Source: an uncultured Clostridia bacterium
Lineage (GTDB): Bacteria > Bacillota > Clostridia > Oscillospirales > Oscillospiraceae
NCBI GenBank assembly: GCA_945864305.1
Contig: CAMBAJ010000001.1
Span: 1 to 64,000, forward strand
Reading direction: 5' to 3'
DNA length: 64,000 nt
The notes under the pieces are model-generated. The model ran no database searches, had not been told where the DNA came from, and was given only the letters and a program-made list of their open reading frames with translations. Each line of letters begins with the position of its first letter. The stretch's first letter is position 1. Positions 6,186 through 47,204 of this stretch are shown one piece after another. Both the position numbers and the translations under genes were made by a program.

Positions 6186-9100
6186 ATGAAGAGATTTTTC
6201 AGAAAACAATTGCCGGCCATTCTGCTGGCGCTGACCATGATGGTCAGTCTGGTGCCTGCCGCCATGGCGGATAATGAAAATACGCCGCCAAGTCAAAACA
6301 CCTGTGAACATGTATGGAGCGGCTGGGTCGAAACGGTAGCGCCAAAGTGCAATGCAGAAGGTACAAAGGTCCGCTCCTGCACTCTCTGCGAAAAAACAGA
6401 AACGGAAACAGTTTCCCCAACCGGTGCCCATTCTTATGAGCAAATCAGCAATACAGCCACTTGCGGCAAAGATGGCATTATTACCGAGCGATGCACCGTC
6501 TGCGGTAATGAGGTCACACGGGCAAGTTATGCAACCAACGCTCATACGTGGGTCAACGATGGTGCACCGAATCCAAGTGCCACTTGCGGTACAGCAGGCA
6601 GTCAGCCTCAGAAGTGTTCTGACTGCGGTGCTACACAAACAGTAACGATTCCCGCGACTGAACAGCATACCTGGGGAACATGGCAAACTACGAAAGCTGC
6701 CACCTGTACGGTGGCCGGTACTCAGACCGCTACCTGCTCAGTCTGCCATCAAACCAAAATTCAAACGCTTGACGCCCTGGGCCACGTGGACAGCAACAGC
6801 GATGGCAAGTGCGACCGCTGCGGTGCCAATATGGGCACCTATTACACCGTGACCTTCCAGTATCTGAACTCCAGCCTGAGTACCACCTACAGTGAAAAGT
6901 CTGTGGCCGCCAACAGCTATGCCTCCGCGCCGTCCGTCACCAACAAGATCACCTCCGGCGGAAAGACCTACACCTTCGCGGGCTGGACCACCACTTTCAG
7001 TGGGAGCAGCAGCTGGTATCTCTACAAGAGCCAGAGTCTGGTCAATCCGTCCAGCTACCGCATTACCGGCAATACCACCTTCTACGCCGTCTACTCCACC
7101 GCCAGCGATTCCACCATCACCTACACCGTCGCTCCCGGCAAGGAGGAGTCCTTCTCCGCCAGCGACTTCAACTCCGCCTACAGGGGCGAGTGCAGCGGTA
7201 CGTTCCGCTACGTCACCTTCAGCGTGACCAGCAGCGCCTACAACAGCTTTGAGGGCGATATCTACTGCGGCAGCACCAAGCTCAGCCGCTCGCAGCTGAC
7301 TTCCTCTGAATTCTACTACAGCAGCTCCTCCTACGGCGATTACGCCCTCAGCGACCTGTCCCTGGTGGCGCCTTCTTCCGCTGATAAGGATACTCTGACG
7401 CTGTCCTTCACCGCGTACGGCAGCAGCGGCTACAGCATGGAGGGCACCGTGAAACTGGTCATCGACGGCAAGGGCTCCGGCGACATTACCTACAAAGTGG
7501 CTGCTGGAAAGGAAGTCGCCTTTGATGAGGATGATTTCAACGATGTCTTCCAGGAGGAGTATCCCAACTACAACATGAAATATGTGACCTTCTCCACCTC
7601 CGACACCCTGAGCACCTCCGAAGGCACCATCTACTATGACTACGGTTACAGCGATCAAAAATCCTTCACCAAGAGTACCATTGACGACTATACCTTCTAT
7701 TACGGCAACAATTCCAGCTATGATTATCCGCTGGACGAATTGTCCTTCGTGGCCGGCAAGAACGCCTCTGACCACACCGTGGAACTGTCCTTCCGAGCTT
7801 ACTACAACTCTTCTAGATATGTGGACGGCACCCTGACCATTGAAGTTGGCGACGGCGGCTCTTCCAGCGACATCACCTATAAGGTGGCCGCCGGCAAGGA
7901 AGCGGCCTTTGACGAGGACGATTTCAACAAGGTCTTCCAGAAAGAGTATTCCAGCTACGACATCAAATACGTCACCTTCTCCACCTCCGCCACCCTGAGC
8001 ACTTCTGAGGGCACCGTCTACTACGATTACGGGTACAGTGACGAGAAGTCCTTCACCAAGAACACCATTGACGACTACAAATTCTATTACGGCAAAAATA
8101 CCAGCTCCGGTGATTACGCCCTGGACGACCTGTCCTTCGTAGCCGGCAAAAACGCCTCCAAGCGCACCGTGGAGCTGTCCTTCCGGGCTTACTACAACTC
8201 TTCCAAATATGTGGACGGCACCCTGACCATTGAGGTTGGTGGCAGTTCTTCCGCCGATATCACCTACAAGGTGGCCCCCGGCAAGGAAGTGGCCTTTGAT
8301 GAGGATGACTTCAACAGCGTCTACCGCAAGGAGTACTCCTCCGGTACCATTAAATGGGTGGAGTTCACGGCTCCTTCCACGCTGACCAGCGCCGGCACCA
8401 TCTACTACGACTACGGCCGCAGCGATCAGAAGTCCTTCACCCGTTCCACCCTCAACAGCGCCAAGTTCTACTACGGCACCTCCAGCAGCTACGGCGATTA
8501 CGCTCTGGACGATCTTTCCTTCGTGGCCTCCAGCAGCTTCAATGCCGCCGTAGAGCTGTCTTTCCGGGCCTATTACAGTGATTCCAAGTATGTGGACGGC
8601 ACGGTGGTCCTCCAGCCGGACGGCACTGCCGCCTCCTCCAACTATATCGGCAATATCCGGTATTCCACCACCACCGGCACCAAGGTCCAGATCAACGCCA
8701 ACGACATCTCCCGGTTCTTCTCCAAGGTCTGCCCCGGCTACACCATGCAGTATGTGATGCTCACCGGCGTGCCCTCTACCGGCAGCCTGTATTACAACTA
8801 CTATGGAACCAGCAAGTACGGCACCACCGCCAAGGCCCAGATCACCGCCTCCAATTGCGGCGGTCAGGCGTTCTACGCCAGCCCCACCTCCACCAGCCAG
8901 TTTGCGCTGACGGAGCTGACTTACGTGCCCAGCGGCTCCAACTATTGCGCCTCCATTCCCTTCACCGCCTACAGCGGCTCCCGCTCTGCATCCGGTGCCA
9001 TTCTCATCAGCGTCAGCAACTCCACTGTGGCGGAGGTCTACGGCGCAACGCCCAAGAACACCGCTGTCACCTTCCCCGCCAGTTCCATCTACAACGCGGT

Positions 9101-9866
9101 CCTCAACGCCACCGGTTCCGCCCTCAGCAGCATCCAGCTGCTGAGCCTGCCCTCCTATACCACCGGTACGGTCTATGTGGGCACCGGCACCTCTACCGCC
9201 GCCAACACCACCACCCAATACACCTACGGCGGCACCATGAACCAGCTTCGGTTCGTCCCCGCCACCGGCTACACCGGTTCTGTTGAGATCCCCTACGTGG
9301 CGCTGAACAGCAATGGCACCGCCATTGCCTCCGGCACCTTCTCCCTGGGCGTGGTGAACAGCGTGAAGAAGTTCTCCGACGTGACCACCTCCACCTGGTG
9401 CTACAAGTATGTGGCGGAGCTGTCCGACGCCAGCGTCATCGCCGGCTACAACGACGGCACCTTCAAGCCCAACAGCACTGTCACCTACGGTGCGGCGCTG
9501 AAGCTCATCATGCTGGCCGCCGGTTATCCCGAGCAAAAGCCTGTCAACAGCAATGTCTTCAGCGGATATCTGGCCAAGGCCCGGGCCGAGGGCATCATCA
9601 CCCGCAGCAACGTGGACCTGACCAAGCCCATCACCCGCCTGCAGGTGGCCCAACTGGCCGCCGGCGCTCTGAAGCTGAACACCAGCAACCTGTCCAGCGT
9701 GAAGCCCTTCACCGACACCAATGACGCCAGCGTCCAGGCCCTGAACGCCGCGGGCATTGTGGAAGGCTACTTCTCCAACGGCACCAGCACCTACAAGCCC
9801 AACAACACCCTGACCCGCGGCCAGGTCTCCGCCATCGTCTGGCGCATGCAGAATTACAGAAAATAA
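6186..9866 (+). CDS. Large secreted surface protein with Cys-rich N-terminal repeats, tandem approx. 125-aa repeats and C-terminal SLH domains
   Basis: Signal peptide MKRFFRKQLPAILLALTMMVSLVPAAMA; repeated ITYKVAAGKEVAFDEDDFN...YVDGTLTIEVG blocks; C-terminal SLH-like FSDVTTSTWCYKYVAELSDASVIAGYNDGTFKPNSTVTYGAALKLI. Confidence 0.85.
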   Translation: MKRFFRKQLPAILLALTMMVSLVPAAMADNENTPPSQNTCEHVWSGWVETVAPKCNAEGTKVRSCTLCEKTETETVSPTGAHSYEQISNTATCGKDGIITERCTVCGNEVTRASYATNAHTWVNDGAPNPSATCGTAGSQPQKCSDCGATQTVTIPATEQHTWGTWQTTKAATCTVAGTQTATCSVCHQTKIQTLDALGHVDSNSDGKCDRCGANMGTYYTVTFQYLNSSLSTTYSEKSVAANSYASAPSVTNKITSGGKTYTFAGWTTTFSGSSSWYLYKSQSLVNPSSYRITGNTTFYAVYSTASDSTITYTVAPGKEESFSASDFNSAYRGECSGTFRYVTFSVTSSAYNSFEGDIYCGSTKLSRSQLTSSEFYYSSSSYGDYALSDLSLVAPSSADKDTLTLSFTAYGSSGYSMEGTVKLVIDGKGSGDITYKVAAGKEVAFDEDDFNDVFQEEYPNYNMKYVTFSTSDTLSTSEGTIYYDYGYSDQKSFTKSTIDDYTFYYGNNSSYDYPLDELSFVAGKNASDHTVELSFRAYYNSSRYVDGTLTIEVGDGGSSSDITYKVAAGKEAAFDEDDFNKVFQKEYSSYDIKYVTFSTSATLSTSEGTVYYDYGYSDEKSFTKNTIDDYKFYYGKNTSSGDYALDDLSFVAGKNASKRTVELSFRAYYNSSKYVDGTLTIEVGGSSSADITYKVAPGKEVAFDEDDFNSVYRKEYSSGTIKWVEFTAPSTLTSAGTIYYDYGRSDQKSFTRSTLNSAKFYYGTSSSYGDYALDDLSFVASSSFNAAVELSFRAYYSDSKYVDGTVVLQPDGTAASSNYIGNIRYSTTTGTKVQINANDISRFFSKVCPGYTMQYVMLTGVPSTGSLYYNYYGTSKYGTTAKAQITASNCGGQAFYASPTSTSQFALTELTYVPSGSNYCASIPFTAYSGSRSASGAILISVSNSTVAEVYGATPKNTAVTFPASSIYNAVLNATGSALSSIQLLSLPSYTTGTVYVGTGTSTAANTTTQYTYGGTMNQLRFVPATGYTGSVEIPYVALNSNGTAIASGTFSLGVVNSVKKFSDVTTSTWCYKYVAELSDASVIAGYNDGTFKPNSTVTYGAALKLIMLAAGYPEQKPVNSNVFSGYLAKARAEGIITRSNVDLTKPITRLQVAQLAAGALKLNTSNLSSVKPFTDTNDASVQALNAAGIVEGYFSNGTSTYKPNNTLTRGQVSAIVWRMQNYRK
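7480..8640 (+). repeat. Tandem in-frame approx. 375-bp repeats within the SLH protein gene
   Basis: Three near-identical and one diverged copy of ITYKVA[AP]GKE.AFDEDDFN...SFTK.TIDD..FYYG...LSFVAGKNAS..TVELSFRAYYNSS.YVDGTLTIEVG. Confidence 0.85.
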
Positions 9867-9912
9867 GCTCCCTGAAATGTTGAAGAGGACTGCCTTCCGG
9901 CAGTCCTCTTTC

Positions 9913-10845
9913 TCATATCTCTTCACGCTGCATGCGGCGGCGCTGGGCCAGCAGCCACTCCCGGTCCCGGCGAGCGGCCTCATCTCCGGGGTCTGCCTGG
10001 AGGATATAGCCCACCCGGCCCAACAGATGGTCCAGATAGGCCCGGGGCGTCATTTCACCGCCGGTCCGCCGCAGGTGGTCCTCCACACCGAACCTTTGGC
10101 AGTAGTAGACCGCCTGGCGCACCGCCCGGCGCTCCTCCGCCGGTACGCGGACGCCGCGATTCACCACCAGCCCTGTCACCGTCTGCCGGCGGCCGTCCCG
10201 GCAAAGGCGGGTCTTTCCGGCATGGAGGAAAAAGCCCAGCGCGGCCAGTTCCTCCTCCGCCTTCTCCCGGACACCGTCCAAATGCTGTCCGGAGAACACC
10301 AGGTCGTCGCAGTAGCGGGAATAGGTGACGCCCCGCTCCCGGCACCAGGCCCCCAGGCCCTCGTCAAAGTCCCGCAGGAGAATGTTGACGATGGCAGGGG
10401 AGGTGGGCGCCCCTTGGGGCAGGCCGTCCCGGTAGTAGCAGAGCATGGTCAGCAGGATGCGCAAGGGCTCGGAGAACACCTCCGGCGGGAACACGGTCTC
10501 CTTCACCGCCGTGTAGCGGACGCTGTCAAAGAAATGGCGGATATCCAGGCGGAGCACCTCCCGCTGTCCCGTGTGCCGGGCGGCGTTCCGGACCGCGCCG
10601 GAGCCGCAGCGGTAGGCTGTGGCGTAGTGGGACACTGGCATATAGGCCAGAAGGTTGCGGTAGATGCTGCGCTGGATGCGCTTGAGAATCTCATCCGGCA
10701 CCGCCAGCTGCCGCTCGCCGCCGTTCTTTTTCGGAATCTTCACCGTGTGATAGTGGGACGGCAGACTGTTGCTGACGGCGTACAGCGTCCTGGCGTCGAT
10801 TTTCAGGTCCCGGGCGAGGGTGGAGACCTCCCGATATACAATCAT
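9913..10845 (-). CDS. Retron-type reverse transcriptase
   Basis: 310 aa; NAARH immediately before LRLDIRHFFDSV (region X NAxxH), LPQGAPTSPAIVN, YSRYCDDLVFSG, VTGLVVN (region Y VTG motif); AGGAGG 8 nt before the ATG at 10845. The longer ORF call (to 11016) runs into the ncRNA. Confidence 0.93.
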   Translation of the reverse strand: MIVYREVSTLARDLKIDARTLYAVSNSLPSHYHTVKIPKKNGGERQLAVPDEILKRIQRSIYRNLLAYMPVSHYATAYRCGSGAVRNAARHTGQREVLRLDIRHFFDSVRYTAVKETVFPPEVFSEPLRILLTMLCYYRDGLPQGAPTSPAIVNILLRDFDEGLGAWCRERGVTYSRYCDDLVFSGQHLDGVREKAEEELAALGFFLHAGKTRLCRDGRRQTVTGLVVNRGVRVPAEERRAVRQAVYYCQRFGVEDHLRRTGGEMTPRAYLDHLLGRVGYILQADPGDEAARRDREWLLAQRRRMQREEI

Positions 10846-10871
10846 GTGGAAGCCTCCTTTCCCAGGCCCTC

Positions 10872-11047
10872 CGGAACAAAACCAGTCTGCATGGCGAGAC
10901 GCGCGGCGGTATCGTGAGCACACAGCGTGTGCGGTAATACCGCTGTGCGGCCTCGGCTGAGCGCAGCGAATACGGGGCAGATGCCAGTCCCGGCGGCGAC
11001 TCGCCGCCGGTGCCAATGGGAGCCATTGGACCCTTTCTTTTGTTCCG
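10872..11047 (-). ncRNA. Candidate retron msr-msd non-coding RNA
   Basis: Perfect 10-bp IR (a1 CGGAACAAAA at 11047-11038; a2 TTTTGTTCCG at 10881-10872, minus strand) enclosing hairpins CCAATGG-CTC-CCATTGG (11013-11029), CCGGCGGCGA-G-TCGCCGCCGG (10990-11010) and a longer hairpin with CACAGCG/CGCTGTG arms (about 10909-10973); ends 26 nt before the RT start. Confidence 0.85.
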
Positions 11048-11231
11048 TGCGCCGCCCTTTCGGGTCTGCGTTATGTCCACCATACTCCTTTTTTCCCGCC
11101 GCCGCAAGAGGCGCGGCCGCCCTTTTGAAAAATTCCCCCGCGGAACGGCTTTTATGCGCCCATAATCTGGACGGGAGGGCGTTTCCATGCTATCATGATT
11201 CCATCATATACAAATACGGGAGGATTTCCAT

Positions 11232-12812
11232 ATGTATTTGCAGGATCAGCACAAGGTCTGGCTGGCCACCGGCGACACGCCCATCTATCTGGAGCCCGCC
11301 ATGGCCAACCGCCACGGCCTTATTGCCGGCGCCACCGGCACTGGCAAGACCGTCACACTGAAGGTGCTGGCGGAGTCCTTCAGCGACATGGGTGTGCCGG
11401 TGTTTCTGGCGGACATCAAGGGCGACCTCAGCGGCATGTGCCTGCCGGGACAGGAGAACAAGCACATCCACCGCAGCATCGACACCATGGGCATCACAGG
11501 CTTTGACTACACCGCCTATCCCGTCCGCTTTTTCGACGTCTACGGCCAGAAGAGCCACCCCGTCCGCACCACCATCTCCGAGATGGGGCCGGAGCTGCTG
11601 AGCCGCCTGCTGGGCCTGAACGACACCCAGAGCGGCATTCTGCGCATCGTGTTCCGCATCGCCGACGACCAGGGGCTGCTGCTCATCGACCTGAAGGACC
11701 TGCGGAGCATGGTCCAGTACGTGGGCGACAACGCCAGGGAGTACAAGCTGACCTACGGCAACATCTCCAGCCAGTCCGTGGGCGCCATTCAACGGGCATT
11801 GCTGGCTCTGGAGGACGAGGGCGGCGGCATCTTCTTCGGAGAGCCCGCCCTGGACATCGCCGACTGGATGGACTGGGCGGAGGACGGCCGGGGCGTCATG
11901 AACATTCTGGAGTGCCAGGAGCTGTTCCAGCATCCGCTGCTGTACGCCACCTTCCTGCTGTGGATGCTCTCGGAGCTCTATGAGATGCTGCCTGAGGCCG
12001 GAGACCTGGACAAGCCCAAGCTGGCCTTCTTCTTCGACGAGGCCCACCTCCTGTTCAACGGTGCCCCCAAGGCGCTGGTGGAAAAGGTGGAGCAGGTGGT
12101 GCGGCTGATCCGCTCCAAGGGCGTCAGCGTCTGGTTCATCACTCAGAATCCCTCCGATATCCCGGACAGTGTCCTGGGACAGATCGGCAACCGGGTCCAG
12201 CACGCACTGCGGGCCTACACCCCCAACGACCAGAAGGCCCTGCGGGCCGCCGCCAAATCCTTCCGGGTCAACCCGGCCTTCAACACCGAGGAGGCCTTAC
12301 AGGCCCTGGGTGTCGGCGAGGCTCTGGTGTCCGTTCTGGACGAGAAGGGCGTGCCCTCCATCGTGCAGAAGGCGGGCATCCTGCCGCCCCGCAGCTCCAT
12401 GAGCGCCGCACCGGAGGCAGATGTCCAGCAGGCCATTCAGAAAAGCCCCCTCTATCAGAAATACGCCCAGTCCATGGACCGCCGCTCCGCCTATGAGGTT
12501 CTGGAGGAGGTCCGGGACCAGCAGGCTGCCCAGGAAGAGGCGGCGGCCCGTCAGGCGGCCTGGGAAAAGGAGCAGAAGGCCCGAGAGAAAGAAATGAAAG
12601 CTCAGCAGGCCGCCTGGGAGCGGGAGCAGCGGGAACGGGAGCGGGCATACCGGCAGGCTCCGCCCCGGCGTCCCTCCGCCTCCAGCCGGTCCACCTCCAG
12701 CCGCAGGAAGCAGGACCCTCTGGAAAAGGCCATCAACTCCGCCGCCAACACCGTGGGCCGGGAGGTCGGCAAGCAGATCGTCCGGGGCCTGTTCGGCACC
12801 TTCCGCCGCTGA
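11232..12812 (+). CDS. HerA/VirB4-like DUF853-type P-loop ATPase
   Basis: Walker [17 protein letters not shown], Walker [52 protein letters not shown]. Confidence 0.9.
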
Positions 12813-12892
12813 CGGCACATCGTATCTCATACAAATCATCCCCTGGGAAAGCCGCGCTTTTCCAGGGGATGATTGCTTTTTTCAGGAATGAA

Positions 12893-14263
12893 TCATGGCG
12901 TTTCCACATCCGCCGCAGGCCGGATTCCATCCATCTGCATGCGGTAGCTCCTGACAAAATAGGCCGCCTCCGCCGCTCCGGTGATGGCCCAGGAGAAGAT
13001 ATACAGCAGGTATAGGGACGTGATGGTTCCGAAATAAGTAAAGACGGTGTATATCCAGATCACCCGGAACACGCAGGAACCGCTGATGACGATGATCATG
13101 GGCGCCACGGTCTTTCCAAGTCCCCGGGAGGCGGCGATGGAGCAGTCCATAAAGGCCGAGAACGCATAGGAGCACCCCATGATCACCAGCCGCTTCATAC
13201 CGGCGCCGATAACAGCCTCCTCCGTGGTGAACAGAGAGAGGAACTGCCGGCCGAAGAGGACCAGCACCGCGCTCATGACGGCGGCAACTCCGAAGGAATA
13301 AGCCATGCTGATCAAATAGCTCTTTCGTACCCGGTCTCTTCTCCCGGCGCCGTAATTCTGGCCGATGAAGCTGGCGCACGCCGTGTAAAAGGCCGCCATT
13401 ACATCGTAGACCAGCGCATCGGCGTTGGCGGCGGCGGAATTTCCCTCCACCATAGTGGCGTCAAAGGAGTTGACGGCCGCTTGTATAAAGAGGTTGGCAA
13501 TGGCGAAGATCGCGCTCTGCAGCCCCGCCGGGATGCCCAGCATCAGCAGTTTTCTGGTGCACTTTTTATCCAGGCGGATGGCGGAAAGCCGCAGGGCACA
13601 GGCGTCCCCGCGGCGGAACAGGGCCCCCAGAGTCAGAGCCATGGAAAGATACTGGGACGCCGCACTGGCAGTGGCCACACCCGCCACATCCAGGCGGCAG
13701 ACAATGACGAAAAACAGGTTCAGCAGCACGTTGACAACACCGGCGATGGTCAGATAGAACAGTGGCTTTTTCGTATCCCCCACCGCGCTGAACACCGCGT
13801 TTCCGAAGTTATACAGCGCCAGAGCCGGCATGCCCAGGAAATAGATGCGGAGATAGAGCTCCGCGCCGTCAATCAGTTCCGGCTTAGTATGAAGGAGCTC
13901 CAGAAGTCCCCGGGCAAAGCAGATGCCCGCCGCGGCCAACAGCAGTCCCGCCGCGGCGGAGACGAGGAACGCCGTGTGCACGGTCTTCCGGACCTCCGCT
14001 TCGTTCTTTGCGCCGAAGTGCTGCGCCACCAGCACGTTCACGCCACCACTGAGGCCGATCAGAAATCCGGTAAACAGCGTAACGAGGGTCGTGGTGGAGC
14101 CCACCGCGCCCAGGGCGGCAGTGCCCGCGAACCGGCCTACCACCGCGATATCGGACATGTTGAACAGCACCTGCAGCACGTTGGAGGCGATCAGCGGCAG
14201 GCTGAACAGAAATATCTGTTTTTTCAAAGGGCCGCGCGTCAGGTCCTGTAAGGTTGTATTCAT
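12893..14263 (-). CDS. MATE family efflux transporter
   Basis: About 456 aa, multi-TM; PLKKQIFLFSLPLIASNVLQVLFNMSDIAVVGRF. Confidence 0.92.
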   Translation of the reverse strand: MNTTLQDLTRGPLKKQIFLFSLPLIASNVLQVLFNMSDIAVVGRFAGTAALGAVGSTTTLVTLFTGFLIGLSGGVNVLVAQHFGAKNEAEVRKTVHTAFLVSAAAGLLLAAAGICFARGLLELLHTKPELIDGAELYLRIYFLGMPALALYNFGNAVFSAVGDTKKPLFYLTIAGVVNVLLNLFFVIVCRLDVAGVATASAASQYLSMALTLGALFRRGDACALRLSAIRLDKKCTRKLLMLGIPAGLQSAIFAIANLFIQAAVNSFDATMVEGNSAAANADALVYDVMAAFYTACASFIGQNYGAGRRDRVRKSYLISMAYSFGVAAVMSAVLVLFGRQFLSLFTTEEAVIGAGMKRLVIMGCSYAFSAFMDCSIAASRGLGKTVAPMIIVISGSCVFRVIWIYTVFTYFGTITSLYLLYIFSWAITGAAEAAYFVRSYRMQMDGIRPAADVETP

Positions 14264-14723
14264 TGGTTGTCTCTCCCATTTTCCGGTCTGTCCGGATTCT
14301 TTCCCGCCGTCGGAATCTGCCGGACGGCGCGCAAAACGGCAGGGGAGGCGAATGCCATCCCTGCCGGTAAGAAGTATAGCAGAAGGACTTATATATGCAA
14401 GCCGGATATGACGCTTGCAGCTCGCTGCGCCAATGCGTTAAAAATACGATCTTGCACTGTCTCCCGCCACTCGGACGCGAGTCCAGCGCAGCGGGTCGCA
14501 TCCGAAAGCCAAGAAAGCGCACATCCGGTGTATGAAAAGGCCCTGAGGTCTTTTCTGAGCCGGGAAGTGCGACAGTTTCGCGGTATGCAATTTTAATCCG
14601 TCCCCCAAATCCGAACCGGAATCCAGTGGAGCGAATCCGGTTCGGAAGCGTAGAAATTCCCTGTCCGGCTAAGAAGCCTCGCCGTCAAGACGGGGATTCG
14701 TGCTAAACAGGGAATTTCCGAGC

Positions 14724-14797
14724 TGGAGCGGCTGAGGGGAGTCGAACCCCCCTATGCAGCTTGGGAAGCTGCCGTTCTACCGATGAACTACAGCCGC
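14724..14797 (-). tRNA. tRNA-Gly (anticodon CCC), 3' CCA encoded
   Basis: GCGGCTG...GCAGC-TTCCCAA-GCTGC...GGTTCGACTCC...CAGCCGCTCCA cloverleaf on the minus strand. Confidence 0.95.
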
Positions 14798-14918
14798 GTG
14801 TCTGGAGGGTATGATAGCACATCTTCCGCAAAAATGCAACACGAAAAATGCGGCTCGTCATGAATGTCCTCCTCTGTTCATACAATCTATCAACTGAGGA
14901 TACTGGAGGAGGAGCACC

Positions 14919-16040
14919 ATGAAAAAAATGATCACACTGCTGTGCGCCGTATTGGTATTGTGCACCAGCGCTCGGGCCGTGGAGGTGTCGGCACCGTCGG
15001 CGCTGCTGATGGAGAAGGAGACCGGCCAGGTCCTGTTCGCCAAGGACGAGCACGCCAAGCTGGAGCCAGCCAGCGTCACCAAGGTCATGACTCTGCTTCT
15101 GACCATGGAGGCCATCGGCTCGGGGCAGCTCTCCTACGACACCGTGATCACCGCCTCCGCCCACGCCTGTTCGATGGGCGGCAGCCAGATCTGGCTGAAG
15201 GAAAATGAGCAGATGACGGTCAGCGATATGCTGAAGGCCGTCTGCGTGGTGTCCGCCAACGACTGCGCCGTGGCTCTGGCCGAGCAGATTGCCGGCAGTG
15301 AGGACGCCTTTGTGGAGCGGATGAACCAGCGGGCGGCGGAACTGGGGATGAACGACACCACCTTTAAAAACGCCACCGGCCTGCCGGCGGCGGGCCATGT
15401 CACCTCCGCCTATGACATCGCCCTCATGAGCCGGGAGCTGGTTTTGAACCACCCGGACATCCGCCAGTATACCACCATCTGGATGGACACCCTGCGCAGC
15501 GGCCAGTCCGAGCTGGTGAACACCAACAAGCTCATCCGTTTTTATGAGGGTGCCACCGGGCTGAAAACCGGCTCCACCGACGCCGCCGGCTACTGCCTCT
15601 CCGCCACGGCTGAGCGGGAGGGGATGGAGCTCATCGCCGTCATCATGAAGGGCGCCACCTCCGCCCAGCGGTTTGAGGACGCCAAGACGCTGCTCTCCTA
15701 CGGGTTTTCCGCATACGCGCTGAAAAAGGTCACACCGGAGACGCCGCTGCCGCCGGTAAAGGTGGAGCTGGGGACCCAGGCCACCGTCCAGCCCGTGCTG
15801 GGAGAGGGCGGCTCGCTGCTGCTGGAACGGGCCAGAGCCAGCGATCTTCAGCAGTCCGTCACCCTGGCGGACTCCGTCGCCGCGCCGGTGGAAGCGGGCG
15901 ACTCTCTGGGGACGCTGACCGTCACTTCAGGCGGGGAAACCGTGGCTGAAATCCCCATTCTGGCCGGAGAATCCGTTCCCCGCATCACCTATGGGCAAAT
16001 GTTGCGCCGGCTGCTGCAAACGGCGTTTTTGTCAGATTGA
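14919..16040 (+). CDS. D-alanyl-D-alanine carboxypeptidase (penicillin-binding protein, DacF-like)
   Basis: [19 protein letters not shown] (SxxK), SANDCAV (SxN), [14 protein letters not shown] (KTG). Confidence 0.93.
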
Positions 16041-39558: not shown

Positions 39559-39639
<81 letters not shown>

Positions 39640-39640
<1 letters not shown>

Positions 39641-39670: not shown

Positions 39671-39798
39671 CTGCACTTTTTGCCTTAAAATAGTTTGGGT
39701 CAAAATTTGGGTCAGAGGTCTGACCCAAGCCGTGACCCAAACGGGAATATGTGAATTTAGTTCTGGGTAGCACAGCTCTCCTTTTATCGAGCCGTTTC

Positions 39799-39827
39799 TT
39801 GATGTTATTTCTAAATGTTGTTATAAT
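39799..39827 (+). promoter_or_regulatory. Sigma-A promoter of the element's membrane-protein gene
   Basis: TTGATG-N17-TATAAT about 40 bp upstream of the ATG at 39869. Confidence 0.75.
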
Positions 39828-39868
39828 TCAGCTATCCCCTTAGTCAAAAAAGAAGGAGCAGTCCAAAA

Positions 39869-41020
39869 ATGAATATGAAACAGCTTGTTATTTGTTTGGG
39901 CGTCGCTGTTATTATCAATCTGGCACTTACGATATTCTTTATAACAAAGGTATTCCGCCTTGAAAAACGCGCAAAAAAACCGTTGCAACATCACAAAAGC
40001 CATTCAACGTCAAATGGCTCAAAAGGGATTTTTATCGGAATATTTCTTTTAATATTCGTAATTCTCATCATTTTGGCTGAAGCCCCTGCTGTTTTTATGG
40101 CGGTATATAAGATTCCTGGAGATGCCCCATTTTCAGACGGGCGATATGCTTTTTGGGGAAGTCTCTTGGGCGGAGCAATTGGCGGAATCGCCGCGCTATT
40201 AACGATATACTACACTATTCGGTATTATAACAAAAAAGATGCTGAACAAAAAAATCTGGAAGTATATCGTCAGCAGGTCACTAAAATCGATAAGATTATT
40301 TCGGCCATTAATAATCGCGATGTCATAAATTATGATTTTACTTACGCCCTCGGTTTTTCAAAAGAGTTGTTGCAAGAAATAATTAACTATAATGGACTTG
40401 TTTGCTGGCTGAAAGGCTTTTTTACCGAATATGGAATGGGGGTTTTAGGTAGTTTTCAGCAAGAATACATTGACCTACAAAAAGTGAAAAAGCCTTATTA
40501 TAAGATTCAAGAAATTCTTAACGATAAAATCCATTTTATCCGTGGGTGTTTTTCTAGAGATTCTCAACTCGAGGAGAATGAGTGGAGGATAAAGCGCCCT
40601 TCTGTCATAGAGTTTCTTAATTTGCAACCAGAGTTACGGCAATGTGCAGAACGAATTGGCCACCTGGGCCTATATGAGAATGCAAACGAACTAATTCATA
40701 GCGACCCAACGCTTTCGTATATACTTGAGATTGAAGGCGGTGGATCGGCAGGATTATGGGCATCGCTAATCCATGACCCCCAAGGCGCGTTTAGTGGTGA
40801 TCCTGATCAATATAATAGATGGAAAGAATTTAATACATGCGTTCAAAATCTATTAATCCATCTGTCCGAGTTTAAGATTACGGAGTATCAAAGAATAGTT
40901 GTTGAAGGCGAGGCCGTTACACTTCCACAATATTATATCAAAAAAGAAGGTTCCTTCATGCACGAAACAACTACTGTTGAAGAGTATCCGCCTAAGGAAG
41001 AAGTGGCTAGTAAACCTTAA
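39869..41020 (+). CDS. Element-borne membrane protein (about 3 TM plus large cytoplasmic domain), unknown function
   Basis: 383 aa; TM segments QLVICLGVAVIINLALTIFFI, GIFIGIFLLIFVILIILAEAPAVF, FWGSLLGGAIGGIAALLTIYYTI. Confidence 0.75.
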   Translation: MNMKQLVICLGVAVIINLALTIFFITKVFRLEKRAKKPLQHHKSHSTSNGSKGIFIGIFLLIFVILIILAEAPAVFMAVYKIPGDAPFSDGRYAFWGSLLGGAIGGIAALLTIYYTIRYYNKKDAEQKNLEVYRQQVTKIDKIISAINNRDVINYDFTYALGFSKELLQEIINYNGLVCWLKGFFTEYGMGVLGSFQQEYIDLQKVKKPYYKIQEILNDKIHFIRGCFSRDSQLEENEWRIKRPSVIEFLNLQPELRQCAERIGHLGLYENANELIHSDPTLSYILEIEGGGSAGLWASLIHDPQGAFSGDPDQYNRWKEFNTCVQNLLIHLSEFKITEYQRIVVEGEAVTLPQYYIKKEGSFMHETTTVEEYPPKEEVASKP

Positions 41021-41109
41021 TGTATACAGAATCATTTCTGACATCTTATGCATTAAGATAAGCGCAAAATGGCGAGAGTCTTTGGCAGATTCTCGCCATT
41101 CTTTCTTTT

Positions 41110-42261
41110 TCAGATTGCGCCGGTTAATACGCTCGCCATCGTATTCGCCGCTTCCTTCTGCGCTGTTGTGGTAACATGGGCGTAGGTGTCCAGGGTGAAT
41201 CCCGCCGAGAAGTGGCCCAGCATCCCGGAGACGGTCTTGATATCTACGCCGTTCTGGAGGGCTAACGTGGCGAAGGTGTGGCGCAGGTCGTGGAAACGGA
41301 CTTTTGGTAGCCCTGCCCGTTTCAGCACTCGGTGGAGCATATGGAGGACACTGTCCGGGGAGATTGGGCCACCCGTGGGGGATGGAAATACGTATTGGCT
41401 GTTGCCGCCTTTTTTCTTCTGTGTTTTCAGAACGTCTATCGCATCCGCCGACAGCGGCAGGGTGCGGTAGGCGTTTTTCGTTTTCAAGGGGGCTTCCACG
41501 ATCTCACCGTCGATGCGGGCGATCTGCCGCTGTACCCGGAGGCTGCCATGCTCCAAATCAATGTCGCTCCATTTCAAGCCAAGCAGCTCTCCCCGGCGCA
41601 GGCCGGTGGCCAGTTCGATGTAGTACATCTCGAACACCCCACTTTCTTTTGCCTCCCGCAGGAAAGAGGTCAACTGCTCGACGGGGAGAGTTTTCATCTC
41701 CCGGTGTTCGAGTTTTGGGAGGGCACAGGCGTCGGCTGGATTGGTCAGGATGAGTCTTTGCTCGATTGCCAGATTCAAGGCAGAGCAGATGATTTGGTTA
41801 ATGTTCCGTACCGTCTTGGCGCTGAGGCCTTTTGGTTGCTTCTTGGATTCGATACGCTCCACTCGCCCATTTCCCAATAGCTTTTTGTAGAGTTTCTGCA
41901 ATTCCAGAGAAGTAAGTTTATTCAACGGGATGCTGCCGATGTTGGGCTTGATGTGGTTCTCGATGTAGCCCCGATAGGTCTGGTGAGAGGATGGGCGGAC
42001 TTTGATTTTGGCGTAGTTTTCAAACCAGACGTCCATCCATTGCCCGACTGTGTACTGGCCCACTTTGCTCATATCCAGTTTGGCAGAGTCCTCGATAGCC
42101 CGTTTCAGCTTTTCTTTGACCTCTGTCTGAGTCTTACCAAGGATATTCTTGTAGATGGTCTTGCCTGTTGCCGGGTCATGTCCTGCCGTGTAGCGGCCCT
42201 CCCAGCGGCCATCCTTTCGTTTGCGGATGCTGCCCTCGCCGTTGGCTCGTTTCTTTGCCAT
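41110..42261 (-). CDS. Tyrosine recombinase / site-specific integrase
   Basis: N-terminal AP2-like GEGSIRKRKDGRWEGRYTAG; TGLRRGELLGLKWSDID; HDLRHTFATLALQNGVDIKTVSGMLGH; DTYAHVT. Confidence 0.96.
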   Translation of the reverse strand: MAKKRANGEGSIRKRKDGRWEGRYTAGHDPATGKTIYKNILGKTQTEVKEKLKRAIEDSAKLDMSKVGQYTVGQWMDVWFENYAKIKVRPSSHQTYRGYIENHIKPNIGSIPLNKLTSLELQKLYKKLLGNGRVERIESKKQPKGLSAKTVRNINQIICSALNLAIEQRLILTNPADACALPKLEHREMKTLPVEQLTSFLREAKESGVFEMYYIELATGLRRGELLGLKWSDIDLEHGSLRVQRQIARIDGEIVEAPLKTKNAYRTLPLSADAIDVLKTQKKKGGNSQYVFPSPTGGPISPDSVLHMLHRVLKRAGLPKVRFHDLRHTFATLALQNGVDIKTVSGMLGHFSAGFTLDTYAHVTTTAQKEAANTMASVLTGAI

Positions 42262-42566
42262 CAGTCATCCCTCCTCTGCTGCTGTCCCATCCGGTGTTCT
42301 TCTTCCTCCGCGAAGGAGTAGGGCGGCTCCATGCTCAGTTCGCTGATAATGCCCCAGGCCAGACGGAAACCTGCGGCGAAACTGGCGAGGGCGGTTTCGT
42401 CCCGCAGCTCTGCTTCCAGGTCCACCAATTTCAGAAGACTGCGGCGTTCCTGTTTGGCCTTGCCCTCAGTCAATGCCTGATGGATTTCGTTAATTTCCTG
42501 CCGCAGTTCCGGGAAATCCGGCTCCTTGAAGAATTGTCGCTGCAGTCCTCTCATGTATTCGTACAT
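42261..42566 (-). CDS. Small helical protein translationally coupled to the integrase
   Basis: 101 aa; stop overlaps the integrase start codon (ATGA). Confidence 0.7.
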   Translation of the reverse strand: MYEYMRGLQRQFFKEPDFPELRQEINEIHQALTEGKAKQERRSLLKLVDLEAELRDETALASFAAGFRLAWGIISELSMEPPYSFAEEEEHRMGQQQRRDD

Positions 42567-42964: not shown

Positions 42965-43342
42965 TGTTCTTTATCCTGCCTCAGCTTTCGTCCTCCGTCG
43001 GCTCCCGGAAACCGGCCCAAATCCGTTCTCACAGCCCTGGCCGGTGTCTGTTCCCGATTCTCCCGGCAAAGTCGCACACAACGGCTCACAAGGCCAACCA
43101 AGGTGTGAATGGACACTCATCGTTCCCTCCTGTGCCAATAAGTTCTTCTTTGATTACAGCGGTGAATTTTTTGCACCAGCGTTCCGCTGCGTTCATGCAC
43201 CTTTCTCAGCACTCCGAATCCGAGCTGTACAGACTTTTGTACAAGCCTGTGCTCTATTATGTTTTCGCAAAAGCGATTTAAAATCGTAATCTCAGAAACC
43301 AACGTTGGCCCAAAAACCGCATGAATCGGAGGGAATATTTCC

Positions 43343-44629
43343 ATGGGGGAAGAATTGATGCGCAAAGTCTGGGGCATCTGCGCAGACCGCTATGGTGCTG
43401 CTTTGACGGATATCATTTTCAACAGACTGCAGCAGGAGCTTCAAAATATTACCGTAAATGGCTTTTCCGAAGACTACTTGTCCACAAGCGGCATCTGCCT
43501 GGAGCTCCAGCACCGCAACGCATTACAGATCTGTCTTGGCACGGTTGGCAACTCATTTGTCGCCTACTTGTTAGGTATCACAGAGATCAATCCCCTCCCG
43601 CCACATTACCGCTGTCCTCACTGCAAGCGGGTAACCTTTGTATCGGACGTTTTGGATGGATTTGATTTACCGCCGCAGGATTGCCCTGTCTGCCGCACTC
43701 CCATGGAAGGTGACGGACATCATTTGCATACCGCATGGTTCACCGGGTGGGATGGAACTTGCCCACCAGCCTTTGGGGAGTTTAGGATGACTCCGAAGGG
43801 AATCCAAATAACAGAGCAGGCTTTGAAAAAACATTCTCCTCTGACACCGCTTGTATTCAGCAATGGCCGGTTCGCAGGCTGGTATCTTTGCAATTCAGAA
43901 AACCTGCGTCATGCGGAGTGGATACATCTCGCATATCCCGGACGTCCAAACCATATTGTACCGGGAGTGAAATACGACTGCGATCTGCCTGCGCCGCGTA
44001 TTCTTATCCATGACAGTGTTTTTTTAAGAAAGCTGGAATGGCTATCGGACGTTACCGGCGTTGAGCTATCCTCGATCCCGATGAATAACCCGGCTATATA
44101 TAACGCATTTTGCAGAGCAATTGAGTATGATACCGCTGACGCAGGTAATCTGCTCTGCACAACAGGTCTTTGCGCTTCGGAGGAACTGCTCAGTGACAGA
44201 TTTACTCTTTGGAGACAGGCTTCCAAGAGCGGATTATCTTTTTCCAGACTTGTCTCGCTGTATGGCGTTATGCATATAAGCGTTCGCCATTCGAGTGCAT
44301 TGGATTTGTCCACAGCGTTGACATTCAGTGACCGCGATTCCGTGATGGAGTATCTGATCCGTCAGGGTCTGCCCCCAAAGGACGCTTTCCAAACAGCCGA
44401 CAATATGCGGTACGGGAGATTTGCCCACATGCCAGCAGATGCATACCCCGTTTTTATACAGGGAATAAACGATGACGGCTTCTTTTTTCATGCGGCGCAA
44501 AACACGGAATATCTGTTTCCCAGAGCGCATAATTCAGCTGTCGTTATGAATGCTGTGCGACTGGCCTGGTTTTCCATTTATGAACCAAGTGCTTTTCGGG
44601 AAGTACAGGACATTGCCCACACTCCATGA
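43343..44629 (+). CDS. PolC-core-like protein, predicted catalytically inactive
   Basis: VNGFSEDYLS...GTVGNSFVAYLLGITEINPLPPHYRCPHCKRVTFVSDVLDGFDLPPQDCPVCRTPMEGDGH; LVSLYGVMH; DSVMEYLIRQGLPPKDAF; TEYLFPRAHNSAVVMNAVRLAWFSIYEP, all collinear with PolC; no PDIDLNF equivalent. Confidence 0.85.
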   Translation: MGEELMRKVWGICADRYGAALTDIIFNRLQQELQNITVNGFSEDYLSTSGICLELQHRNALQICLGTVGNSFVAYLLGITEINPLPPHYRCPHCKRVTFVSDVLDGFDLPPQDCPVCRTPMEGDGHHLHTAWFTGWDGTCPPAFGEFRMTPKGIQITEQALKKHSPLTPLVFSNGRFAGWYLCNSENLRHAEWIHLAYPGRPNHIVPGVKYDCDLPAPRILIHDSVFLRKLEWLSDVTGVELSSIPMNNPAIYNAFCRAIEYDTADAGNLLCTTGLCASEELLSDRFTLWRQASKSGLSFSRLVSLYGVMHISVRHSSALDLSTALTFSDRDSVMEYLIRQGLPPKDAFQTADNMRYGRFAHMPADAYPVFIQGINDDGFFFHAAQNTEYLFPRAHNSAVVMNAVRLAWFSIYEPSAFREVQDIAHTP

Positions 44630-44762
44630 GAAATCTTCCGTCCAACTTTGATGCGAAATCATCGGGGCGCTGGTAAACAGTAGCTGCCTATGCTTCTTCG
44701 CTCGCAGGCGTTGGACAAATTTACACATATATGTTAAGATACAGGCAACGATCAGACTGGGA

Positions 44763-45737
44763 GTGGATGTCATGATGACAGATCGGGCCAACGCCATCTG
44801 CCTTCTTCAGATTTTGAAAGAATATTCTGATGAGAATCATATCCTGTCCATGCGGGAGATCATCGGAAAACTGTCTGCTTTGTATGATATGGAACTGGAC
44901 CGCCGCACCGTATACAGCGCCATAGATCTGCTGTGCAATCTGGGGTATGACATTTCTGTTTACGATGAAAACAAGAAGGGCTATTATCTGCGCAGCCGCG
45001 AATTTGAGGCTGCGGAAGTGCGTCTCCTGATGGACGCGGTTTATTCTTTCGATTATATTCCGGCCAAGCAAACGCAATATTTGATTCAAAAGCTGCAAGG
45101 CTTTCTCAGTGTTCATGAACGAAAGCAGTATAAAAATCTGACAGTTGTAAGACAGGAGCGGAAAACGCAGAATGCGGAGGTCTTTTTGAATATTGAGCTT
45201 TTGGACGAGGCCATCTCAAAAAAGCAAAAAGTCTCATTTACATATCTGGAATATGGGCTGGACAAGCAGCTTCACCCCCGGAGGGAAAAGCCCTATATCG
45301 TCAGCCCTTATGGAATGGTATGTGAGAACGAGCATTACTATTTGATCAACATCAAAGATGGTTTTTCAACGCCCAGCCTGTACCGAATCGATTTGATGAG
45401 GGACATCTCCCTTCTGAATGAACCTGTTGCCATAGATGCCAAAAACGCCTGTTTGGACTCCGTACAAAAGGTGACCTATGCGTTTGTAGGAAAGCAGGAA
45501 GAAATCAAACTGCGCTGTGAGAATTTCACACTTCGGTATGTGTTGGACCGGTTTGGGACGGATGTCCGGATCACGGATAACCATGGCGGCACCTTTACCG
45601 CCAGTTTCTCCGCTTCTCCGAATGGCGTCAAGTTTTGGGCGCTGCAGTACCTCCCTTACATAGAGGTTCTGTCCCCTCAGTCCTTGCGGGATTCCATCAT
45701 TGACAGCATCAAAAGCAACAAGTATCTGGAGGTGTAA
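44763..45737 (+). CDS. WYL-domain transcriptional regulator (HTH plus WYL)
   Basis: ILSMREIIGKLSALYDMELDRRTVYSAIDLLCNLGYDI HTH; KQKVSFTYLEYG...PYIVSPYGMVCENEHYYLINI WYL-like. Confidence 0.85.
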   Translation: MDVMMTDRANAICLLQILKEYSDENHILSMREIIGKLSALYDMELDRRTVYSAIDLLCNLGYDISVYDENKKGYYLRSREFEAAEVRLLMDAVYSFDYIPAKQTQYLIQKLQGFLSVHERKQYKNLTVVRQERKTQNAEVFLNIELLDEAISKKQKVSFTYLEYGLDKQLHPRREKPYIVSPYGMVCENEHYYLINIKDGFSTPSLYRIDLMRDISLLNEPVAIDAKNACLDSVQKVTYAFVGKQEEIKLRCENFTLRYVLDRFGTDVRITDNHGGTFTASFSASPNGVKFWALQYLPYIEVLSPQSLRDSIIDSIKSNKYLEV

Positions 45738-45739
45738 CC

Positions 45740-46981
45740 ATGTATAGCGGCAGTCCAAGCACATCAAACGAGATCTCAGATAAAGAGGCGCTGCAGAACT
45801 TGTTGCTGGACATTCAGTGCCTGGATAGATTGTCAAAATGGAGCAATCGCTTTAATCTTTTTGACGTTCTGAAAATATCCGGCACCGAGATCCGCCACAG
45901 CAACGTGCTGGCATGGCTCCTTGATCCTAATGAGAACCACGGTCTCGGGGATGCTGTCCTGCGGAGGCTTTTGCAAACACTGGTGATCAATTCGCCCCAG
46001 GCAGATGTTTTCCATTCCCTCCTGATGGACCTGTATGGATTTACCGTTTTGCGGGAGTGGGAGCATATCGACCTGCTTGCAGTCTCTCATGAAGAAAGAT
46101 TCCTGCTTTGCATAGAAAACAAGGTTTTCTCCGGGGAACACGATCATCAGTTGGCCCGATATCAAGAGCTTCTGGAAAAAGAGTACCCGCAATATCACAA
46201 AATTTTTGCATTTCTCACGCCGGGCGGTACAGAGCCAGAGGAGGAAACCGCCTGTGGCACTTGGCAGGCGATCAGCTATGAGCAGATCATAGAGGTGGTA
46301 GAGGCTGCCAAGTTCGAAAAGACGCTGTCCGCAGAAGTCTCATATTTTATTGACCAATATTTGGATGCAGTCAGGAGGCATATTGTGGGAGACCGTGAGC
46401 TTGAAAAAATTTGCAGAGAGATCTATGCCAAACACCGTCAGGCGCTGGATCTGATTTATGAAAATCGCCCGGATACTGCTTCGCAGATTTCATCCATCGT
46501 GCAGGAATGGTGCGAAGAGAAATCCCACACAGGCGAGATCAGTTTTGATCCCCAATATTCCGGAAAAACGTACATTCGATTCACTACACCGTACATGACG
46601 AAACTCTTGCCTGAATTTGAAGAGGAAAAGAGCGGTTGGAACTCAAAAAGCATGTACTACTATGAGGTAGTCAACTATGGAAATTCTATCAAAGTTGTTT
46701 TGACCGTCGGGCGTGACAATCTCTCCGCACACCAGATGGACTGCTGTGAACAGCTGAGCACACTCTTAAATCAGCCGGACAAAAAAGAGGCGTGGCGTTG
46801 GAAACGGTTGTTTGCTACACGTCGGCACAGCATAAAAGCTGATCCTTTAACGGACGATTTGCATAAGGAACTCTTTCAGGCTATGGATCAATATTGGGAA
46901 CAAATCGCTGATTTTGAGCATAAAACTTGTACAGCGATTGAACAATCTTCCCAAACGCTTGATGGGAACCTTCCCGTTTGA
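45740..46981 (+). CDS. PD-(D/E)XK nuclease superfamily protein (PDDEXK_4-like)
   Basis: EIRHSNVLAWLLDPNENHGLGDAVLRRLL; WEHIDLLAVSHEERFLLCIENKVFSGEHDHQLARYQ (D...ExK). Confidence 0.82.
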   Translation: MYSGSPSTSNEISDKEALQNLLLDIQCLDRLSKWSNRFNLFDVLKISGTEIRHSNVLAWLLDPNENHGLGDAVLRRLLQTLVINSPQADVFHSLLMDLYGFTVLREWEHIDLLAVSHEERFLLCIENKVFSGEHDHQLARYQELLEKEYPQYHKIFAFLTPGGTEPEEETACGTWQAISYEQIIEVVEAAKFEKTLSAEVSYFIDQYLDAVRRHIVGDRELEKICREIYAKHRQALDLIYENRPDTASQISSIVQEWCEEKSHTGEISFDPQYSGKTYIRFTTPYMTKLLPEFEEEKSGWNSKSMYYYEVVNYGNSIKVVLTVGRDNLSAHQMDCCEQLSTLLNQPDKKEAWRWKRLFATRRHSIKADPLTDDLHKELFQAMDQYWEQIADFEHKTCTAIEQSSQTLDGNLPV

Positions 46982-47152: not shown

Positions 47153-47204
47153 GCTCATAACCCGGAGGTCGTAGGTTCAAGTCCTGCCCCCGCAACCATA
47201 AAAC
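47153..47204 (+). repeat. attR: 52-bp direct repeat of the tRNA-fMet 3' half
   Basis: Identical to 39589-39640; 5' part of the tRNA absent. Confidence 0.95.

Follow-up and report, generated by a model that had tools for sequence, protein, structure and literature searches.

The locus examined here raises the question of what a polymerase without its catalytic residues is doing on a small mobile element. The window (the whole 64,000-nucleotide stretch of DNA analysed) contains an open reading frame at 43343–44629 for a 428-residue protein, P0001, that resembles the polymerase core of PolC and lies beside a gene pair of a type associated with defence. We tentatively favour the reading that P0001 derives from a PolC paralogue, of which it is a catalytically dead remnant, and that Oscillospirales integrative elements made it into a binding-only accessory protein. 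This is the most likely of the explanations weighed below, yet a decaying relic is nearly as likely.

The element measures 7.56 kb and resides in a gut Clostridia host. It is bounded by identical 52-bp direct repeats at 39589–39640 and 47153–47204, 7,564 bp apart, and these perfect repeats, together with the tRNA-Met gene at 39559–39634 and an integrase, bear out its earlier description as a tRNA-integrated island. No recognisable replication or transfer gene was found on the window element. Its features, with reference to copies and related elements (L004, L005, L006 and L113) that are described below, are the following:

39559–39634, plus strand: tRNA-Met(CAT), the attachment gene of the element (ARAGORN)
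39589–39640, plus strand: attL, 52-bp direct repeat formed by the tRNA-Met 3' end and AAAAC; the two copies are identical and the same repeats occur in L005, L006 and L113
39869–41020, plus strand: membrane protein of 383 aa in the left cargo slot; missing in L005, other genes instead in L006 and L113
41110–42261, minus strand: tyrosine integrase (Pfam Phage_integrase, E=1.7e-30)
42261–42566, minus strand: DUF6809 small protein (Pfam E=5e-7)
43328–43333, plus strand: Shine-Dalgarno sequence GGAGGG, conserved in L004 and L005
43343–44629, plus strand: P0001, PolC-like, 428 aa, polymerase core without catalytic Asp; residues 1–142 and 220–417 PolC-homologous, middle degenerate
44712–44740, plus strand: promoter-like site with an extended -10, 5' of the WYL gene; a consensus match only, with 5 such sites found in the region for 4.6 expected
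44763–45737, plus strand: WYL-domain regulator of 324 aa (Pfam WYL 1.5e-7, WCX 2.7e-6; PADLOC WYL 7.9e-25)
45740–46981, plus strand: PDDEXK_4 nuclease of 413 aa, PADLOC candidate defence family PDC-S26 (Pfam 1.1e-36; PADLOC 2.2e-131), starting 2 bp past the WYL stop codon
47153–47204, plus strand: attR, 52-bp direct repeat identical to attL

The frame and coordinates of the P0001 gene were verified, and the GGAGGG motif lies 9 nt upstream of the ATG at 43343, a spacing that is also kept in L004 and L005. P0001 matches the NCBIfam PolC models (PRK00448, E=1.6e-54; TIGR01405, 2.5e-54), and phmmer aligns it with the PolC structures 3f2b (3.7e-39) and 9qpc (1.6e-37) over two collinear stretches, residues 5–142 and 220–417. 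The profile comparison with PolC that the first-pass annotation had proposed, carried out with hhalign, returned 100% probability (E=1.4e-43, 398 columns). The collinearity that the annotation had noticed by eye is borne out, and sequence comparison leaves us certain that P0001 is homologous to PolC across the palm/thumb/finger core of the C family. The protein starts at the palm and ends just past the FPRAH helix. The NTD, OB, PHP and Exo domains and the C-terminal HhH/clamp-binding region were all missing by Pfam and alignment, in agreement with the reported lack of exonuclease, PHP and OB domains, and the sole Pfam match is DNA_pol3_alpha at residues 4–86. No QxxLF clamp motif was found. 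Chance similarity or a misframed ORF was rejected on the basis of the PolC profile and structure matches and the conserved ribosome-binding site. We also rejected a fragment of this host's polC, as the host's own PolC is encoded on a separate contig (C40) and matches P0001 at 39% identity in one stretch and 33% in the other, and the P0001 gene occurs in three species. An AlphaFold model built from 8 sequences was unusable (pLDDT 45), and a tree of the core left P0001 unplaced on a long branch of ~5 substitutions per site.

The losses in P0001 are concentrated where PolC performs catalysis. In every alignment the PDIDLNF site of PolC, which holds the catalytic residues D972 and D974 in E. faecium PolC (PMC12592400), corresponds to TCPPAFGEF. 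Since P0001 contains no Asp at all from residue 138 to 211, loss of the palm DxD is independent of gap placement. The third catalytic Asp, that of KLDILGHDD, is R219 in P0001, so that the loss of all three catalytic aspartates is upheld. The extent of the loss had been understated, however: P0001 is also ~45–50 aa shorter than PolC between the two catalytic motifs, and the nucleotide-binding segment (FRAGTIGT, RTTGQHPGG) is unrecognisable. Taking as invariant the positions that are at least 95% conserved among 68 PolCs, P0001 keeps 34/55 in residues 1–142, 4/45 in the middle and 24/50 in residues 219–428, that is, 58/105 outside and 4/45 inside the catalytic/nucleotide-binding segment (Fisher p=5.8e-8). 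The losses are not random: they are confined to the catalytic segment and the scaffold is conserved. The four zinc-type cysteines (Cys91, 94, 114 and 117) are present, as had been described.

The PolC-like gene is carried by three genomes of the genus and by one 4.2-kb contig, at 94–99% identity and with one copy truncated, so it is not the one-off that the first-pass annotation had named as grounds for refutation. The copy on the 4.2-kb contig (L004) is full-length and 99% identical; this contig was binned as Lachnospiraceae, an uncertain assignment. The copy in L005 (G816) is full-length and 94% identical, and that in L006 (G211, Oscillibacter valericigenes An890) is 99% identical over residues 194–428 only, residues 1–193 having been lost while the WYL and nuclease genes beside it are intact. 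The L005 and L006 elements use the same att site as the window element. In L006 (8088–13060), a DEDDh exonuclease/BRCT-like protein (PADLOC PDC-S48), together with a second protein of 176 aa, takes the place of the P0001-like N-terminal half. A single element lineage thus carries P0001, and most sampled genomes of the genus are devoid of it. Apart from these copies and the L087 case described below, no relative nearer than PolC was found in 86 genus, 401 family, 396 order and 392 class genomes, and the plasmid and phage collections held no match nearer than PolC. Scans of IMG/VR with P0001, P0002 and P0004 returned zero relatives, the alignment-based scans yielding ordinary PolC and distant C-family matches only. 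Short PolC frames from the class search (G731, G542 and G530) were rejected as split or contig-end ordinary PolC. The PDDEXK_4 gene is present in 3/9 genus genomes, which are exactly the element carriers, and in 0/14 controls. Its relatives elsewhere (L070–L072) have neither a PolC-like nor a WYL gene alongside.

The comparison of dN/dS across homologues, another proposed check, could be made as one independent comparison. Between the window and L005 the PolC-like gene has 28 nonsynonymous and 21 synonymous differences (49 in total), giving a dN/dS of 0.378, with a neutral P of 0.028 at kappa near 4 (transitions/transversions 288/152). Over the same pair, dN/dS is 0.365 for the nuclease and 0.053 for the WYL gene. 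Values for the PolC-like gene are 0.38–0.73 versus 0.05 for WYL, and the recent pair formed by the window and L004 (5 nonsynonymous, 2 synonymous) reveals no clear constraint. Divergence varies among the gene segments of the element in a mosaic fashion, which makes a test within the gene the safer choice. The gene accumulated 0 stops and 0 indels relative to L005, whereas the 776-bp upstream spacer has 5 indels at 88% identity; the neutral chance of zero stops across 49 changes is ~0.2. The observation that the frame is still open stands. From this one independent comparison, the evidence for weak purifying selection on the PolC-like gene is moderate.

Outside this element lineage, a second case was found in another family of the same order, on an ICE-like contig (L087; G961:C52, 524–12183). 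It encodes P0004, an 884-aa PolC paralogue with PHP and without the Exo insertion, which is 28% identical to P0001 and has its C-terminus at the same point (..RLAWFRRYYPDAYKKV..). P0004 retains PDIDLVF and the Asp of the third site; RTTGQHPGG and FRAGTIGT are lost and the finger motifs are degenerate. A WYL gene (33% identity with that of the window over 305 aa, E=4e-55) and a PDDEXK_4/PDC-S26 nuclease gene are present less than 4 kb from P0004, with SNF2 helicase, AAA ATPase and DUF2201 genes after them. A PolC derivative, a WYL gene and a PDC-S26-type nuclease are found together in two element types, that of the window and L087. At 86 columns where both proteins differ from PolC, P0001 and P0004 have 14 residues in common for 5.0 expected (P=0.0002), by a shuffle that ignores conservative convergence. 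G961 has a normal PolC besides P0004. The same stretch of L087 encodes an unassigned 264-aa protein among the PDC-S26/PDDEXK_4, WYL and P0004 genes.

A third case belongs to the family of the window but to another genus (L113; G322:C10:15000-34900, 6475–15521), and sits in the tRNA-Met site that the window element uses, sharing its att repeats. Its integrase is frameshifted and 77% identical to that of the window, and its cargo includes a 917-aa exo-less PolC with intact PDIDLNF and KLDLLGHDD motifs, together with an MBL-fold protein and a PD-T4-6-like kinase. The G322 genome, which is 78% complete, yielded no second PolC. We dropped this exo-less PolC as a novelty, because such enzymes are known in Clostridia and Negativicutes and make up 6% of PolCs (PMC3919608). 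L113 also encodes a 226-aa protein with no Pfam match, in which a nuclease-like VDLL..LELK motif is visible by eye. PolC derivatives recur as element cargo, intact in L113, crippled in P0004 and dead in P0001.

These data bear on four explanations. P0001 could still be an active polymerase with its catalytic acids elsewhere, D212-C-D214 for instance, since a DxD string does exist at 212–214; this string aligns 5–7 residues before the third-Asp position and not with the palm DxD, and the dNTP-binding segment is gone, so we regard residual synthesis as extremely improbable. Alternatively, P0001 could maintain the element independently of the defence-type genes, binding primer-template or the host replisome in excision, transfer or copying, and limiting or recruiting host PolC as a form of copy control. 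Residence on an integrase-bearing element, the exo-less PolC with intact catalytic motifs in the same tRNA-Met element family and the proximity of the L087 PolC derivative to SNF2, AAA and DUF2201 genes would all fit such a factor, but we consider it unlikely given that neither replication nor transfer genes are recognisable on the window element, that P0001 has no clamp motif and that most sampled genus genomes do without the gene. The strongest competitor is a relic: an element-borne PolC paralogue that lost its function and is slowly decaying. Recent spread of the element would then explain the open frame, and the residual constraint would be left over from earlier stages. Restriction to one element lineage, a dN/dS well above that of WYL, truncation of 1/4 copies and a neutral P of just ~0.03, with an absence of stops that has a neutral chance of ~0.2, make this a serious possibility, to which we assign a little over one chance in three. 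Slow decay is harder to reconcile with divergence from PolC on such a large scale with no stop or frameshift, with selective retention of the scaffold and Cys positions, with a conserved ribosome-binding site, with an indel-free gene beside a spacer that has five indels and with a constraint on P0001 similar to that on the nuclease.

The binding-only reading is favoured, with some hesitation, by the non-random distribution of the retained invariant positions, by the intact frame beside a spacer with indels and a dN/dS equal to that of the nuclease, by the conserved ribosome-binding site and the several copies (three genus genomes and L004), by the shared end point of P0004 with WYL and PDC-S26 genes nearby when PDDEXK_4 is otherwise rare, and by the unusual residues that P0001 and P0004 have in common. 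It is weakened by the gap to the WYL dN/dS and the unconstrained window–L004 pair, by the L006 element, whose cassette persists without the full gene, by the PDDEXK_4 relatives that have no PolC-like or WYL partner, and by the failed tree placement, the low pLDDT and the missing clamp motif. Accordingly, the claim of a retained non-polymerase function survives at a moderate level: the dN/dS, the absence of indels and the confinement of the losses to the catalytic segment speak for it, and the much stronger constraint on WYL, the truncated L006 copy and the single carrier lineage against it. As a binding-only protein, P0001 would fold as the PolC palm/thumb/finger scaffold and may act by contact rather than synthesis, on primer-template DNA, on a replisome partner or on a PolC-targeting or PolC-recruiting phage factor. 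It might then serve as bait or sensor for the adjoining WYL/PDDEXK_4 defence-type cassette. Phages such as SPP1 use the host PolC for replication (PMC6316719), so that one can conceive of a target for a protein mimicking PolC. P0001 may have the decoy, sensor, inhibitor or copy-control role proposed in the first-pass annotation, for which the one supporting context is that two different elements, those of the window and L087, place a PolC derivative next to WYL and PDC-S26-type nuclease genes. A narrower version, in which a WYL–PolC-like–PDDEXK_4 anti-phage system would use the dead C-family core as its dedicated bait or sensor subunit, to monitor the replicase of the host or phage factors that act on this replicase, appears doubtful.

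P0001 shares with PolC (TIGR01405/PRK00448; 3f2b, 9qpc) a collinear palm/thumb/finger core (profile alignment gives 33% identity), the four-Cys site and the YxFP(K/R)AH finger motif, but it is element-borne, additional to the host polC, and devoid of the catalytic Asp, of ~45–50 aa, of the NTD, OB, PHP, Exo and HhH regions and of a clamp motif. The L113 exo-less PolC resembles it in lying on an element that has a related integrase and is inserted at the same tRNA-Met site, and differs in having PHP, both catalytic motifs and the HhH region. P0004 is alike in its end residue, adjoining WYL and PDC-S26-type genes and degenerate nucleotide-binding segment, and unlike in keeping PHP, the DxD and the third Asp. 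Inactive polymerase homologues are known, namely the Y-family ImuB and iPolY, and PolX1, whose polymerase site is inactive (PMC12926913). They too are polymerase scaffolds minus catalytic residues, ImuB acting in a multiprotein complex, whereas P0001 is of the C family, with no RecA-NT or clamp motif known. No inactive C-family group is described in the two large surveys of bacterial C-family polymerases that we found, of 2013 (PMC3919608) and 2026; the former excluded fragments lacking an intact active site (PMC3919608) and the latter dropped strongly diverged or truncated sequences ahead of tree building. The neighbouring nuclease matches PDC-S26 at 2.2e-131, although PDC-S26 is a single-gene candidate whose definition does not include a PolC-like partner; a search under that name found no paper on its mechanism in the literature covered. 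WYL regulators control defence operons elsewhere, for example BrxR (PMC9122589). If P0001 works, small defence-carrying elements turned a replicase scaffold into a binding protein, and the PDC-S26 family would gain a possible partner. L113 (intact motifs), P0004 (crippled) and P0001 (dead) constitute a graded series in which such a conversion can be tested.

The elements also vary in their other cargo. The gap between the tRNA-Met and integrase genes (39700–41100 in the window) is a cargo slot that holds a membrane protein in the window, an exonuclease module in L006 and a kinase in L113, and is empty in L005. In L006 the integrase sits further to the right. The DUF6809 gene (42261–42566 in the window, 8799–9167 in L005) has 61% DNA identity between the two elements, compared with 90–98% for their other genes, a divergence that suggests mosaic exchange.
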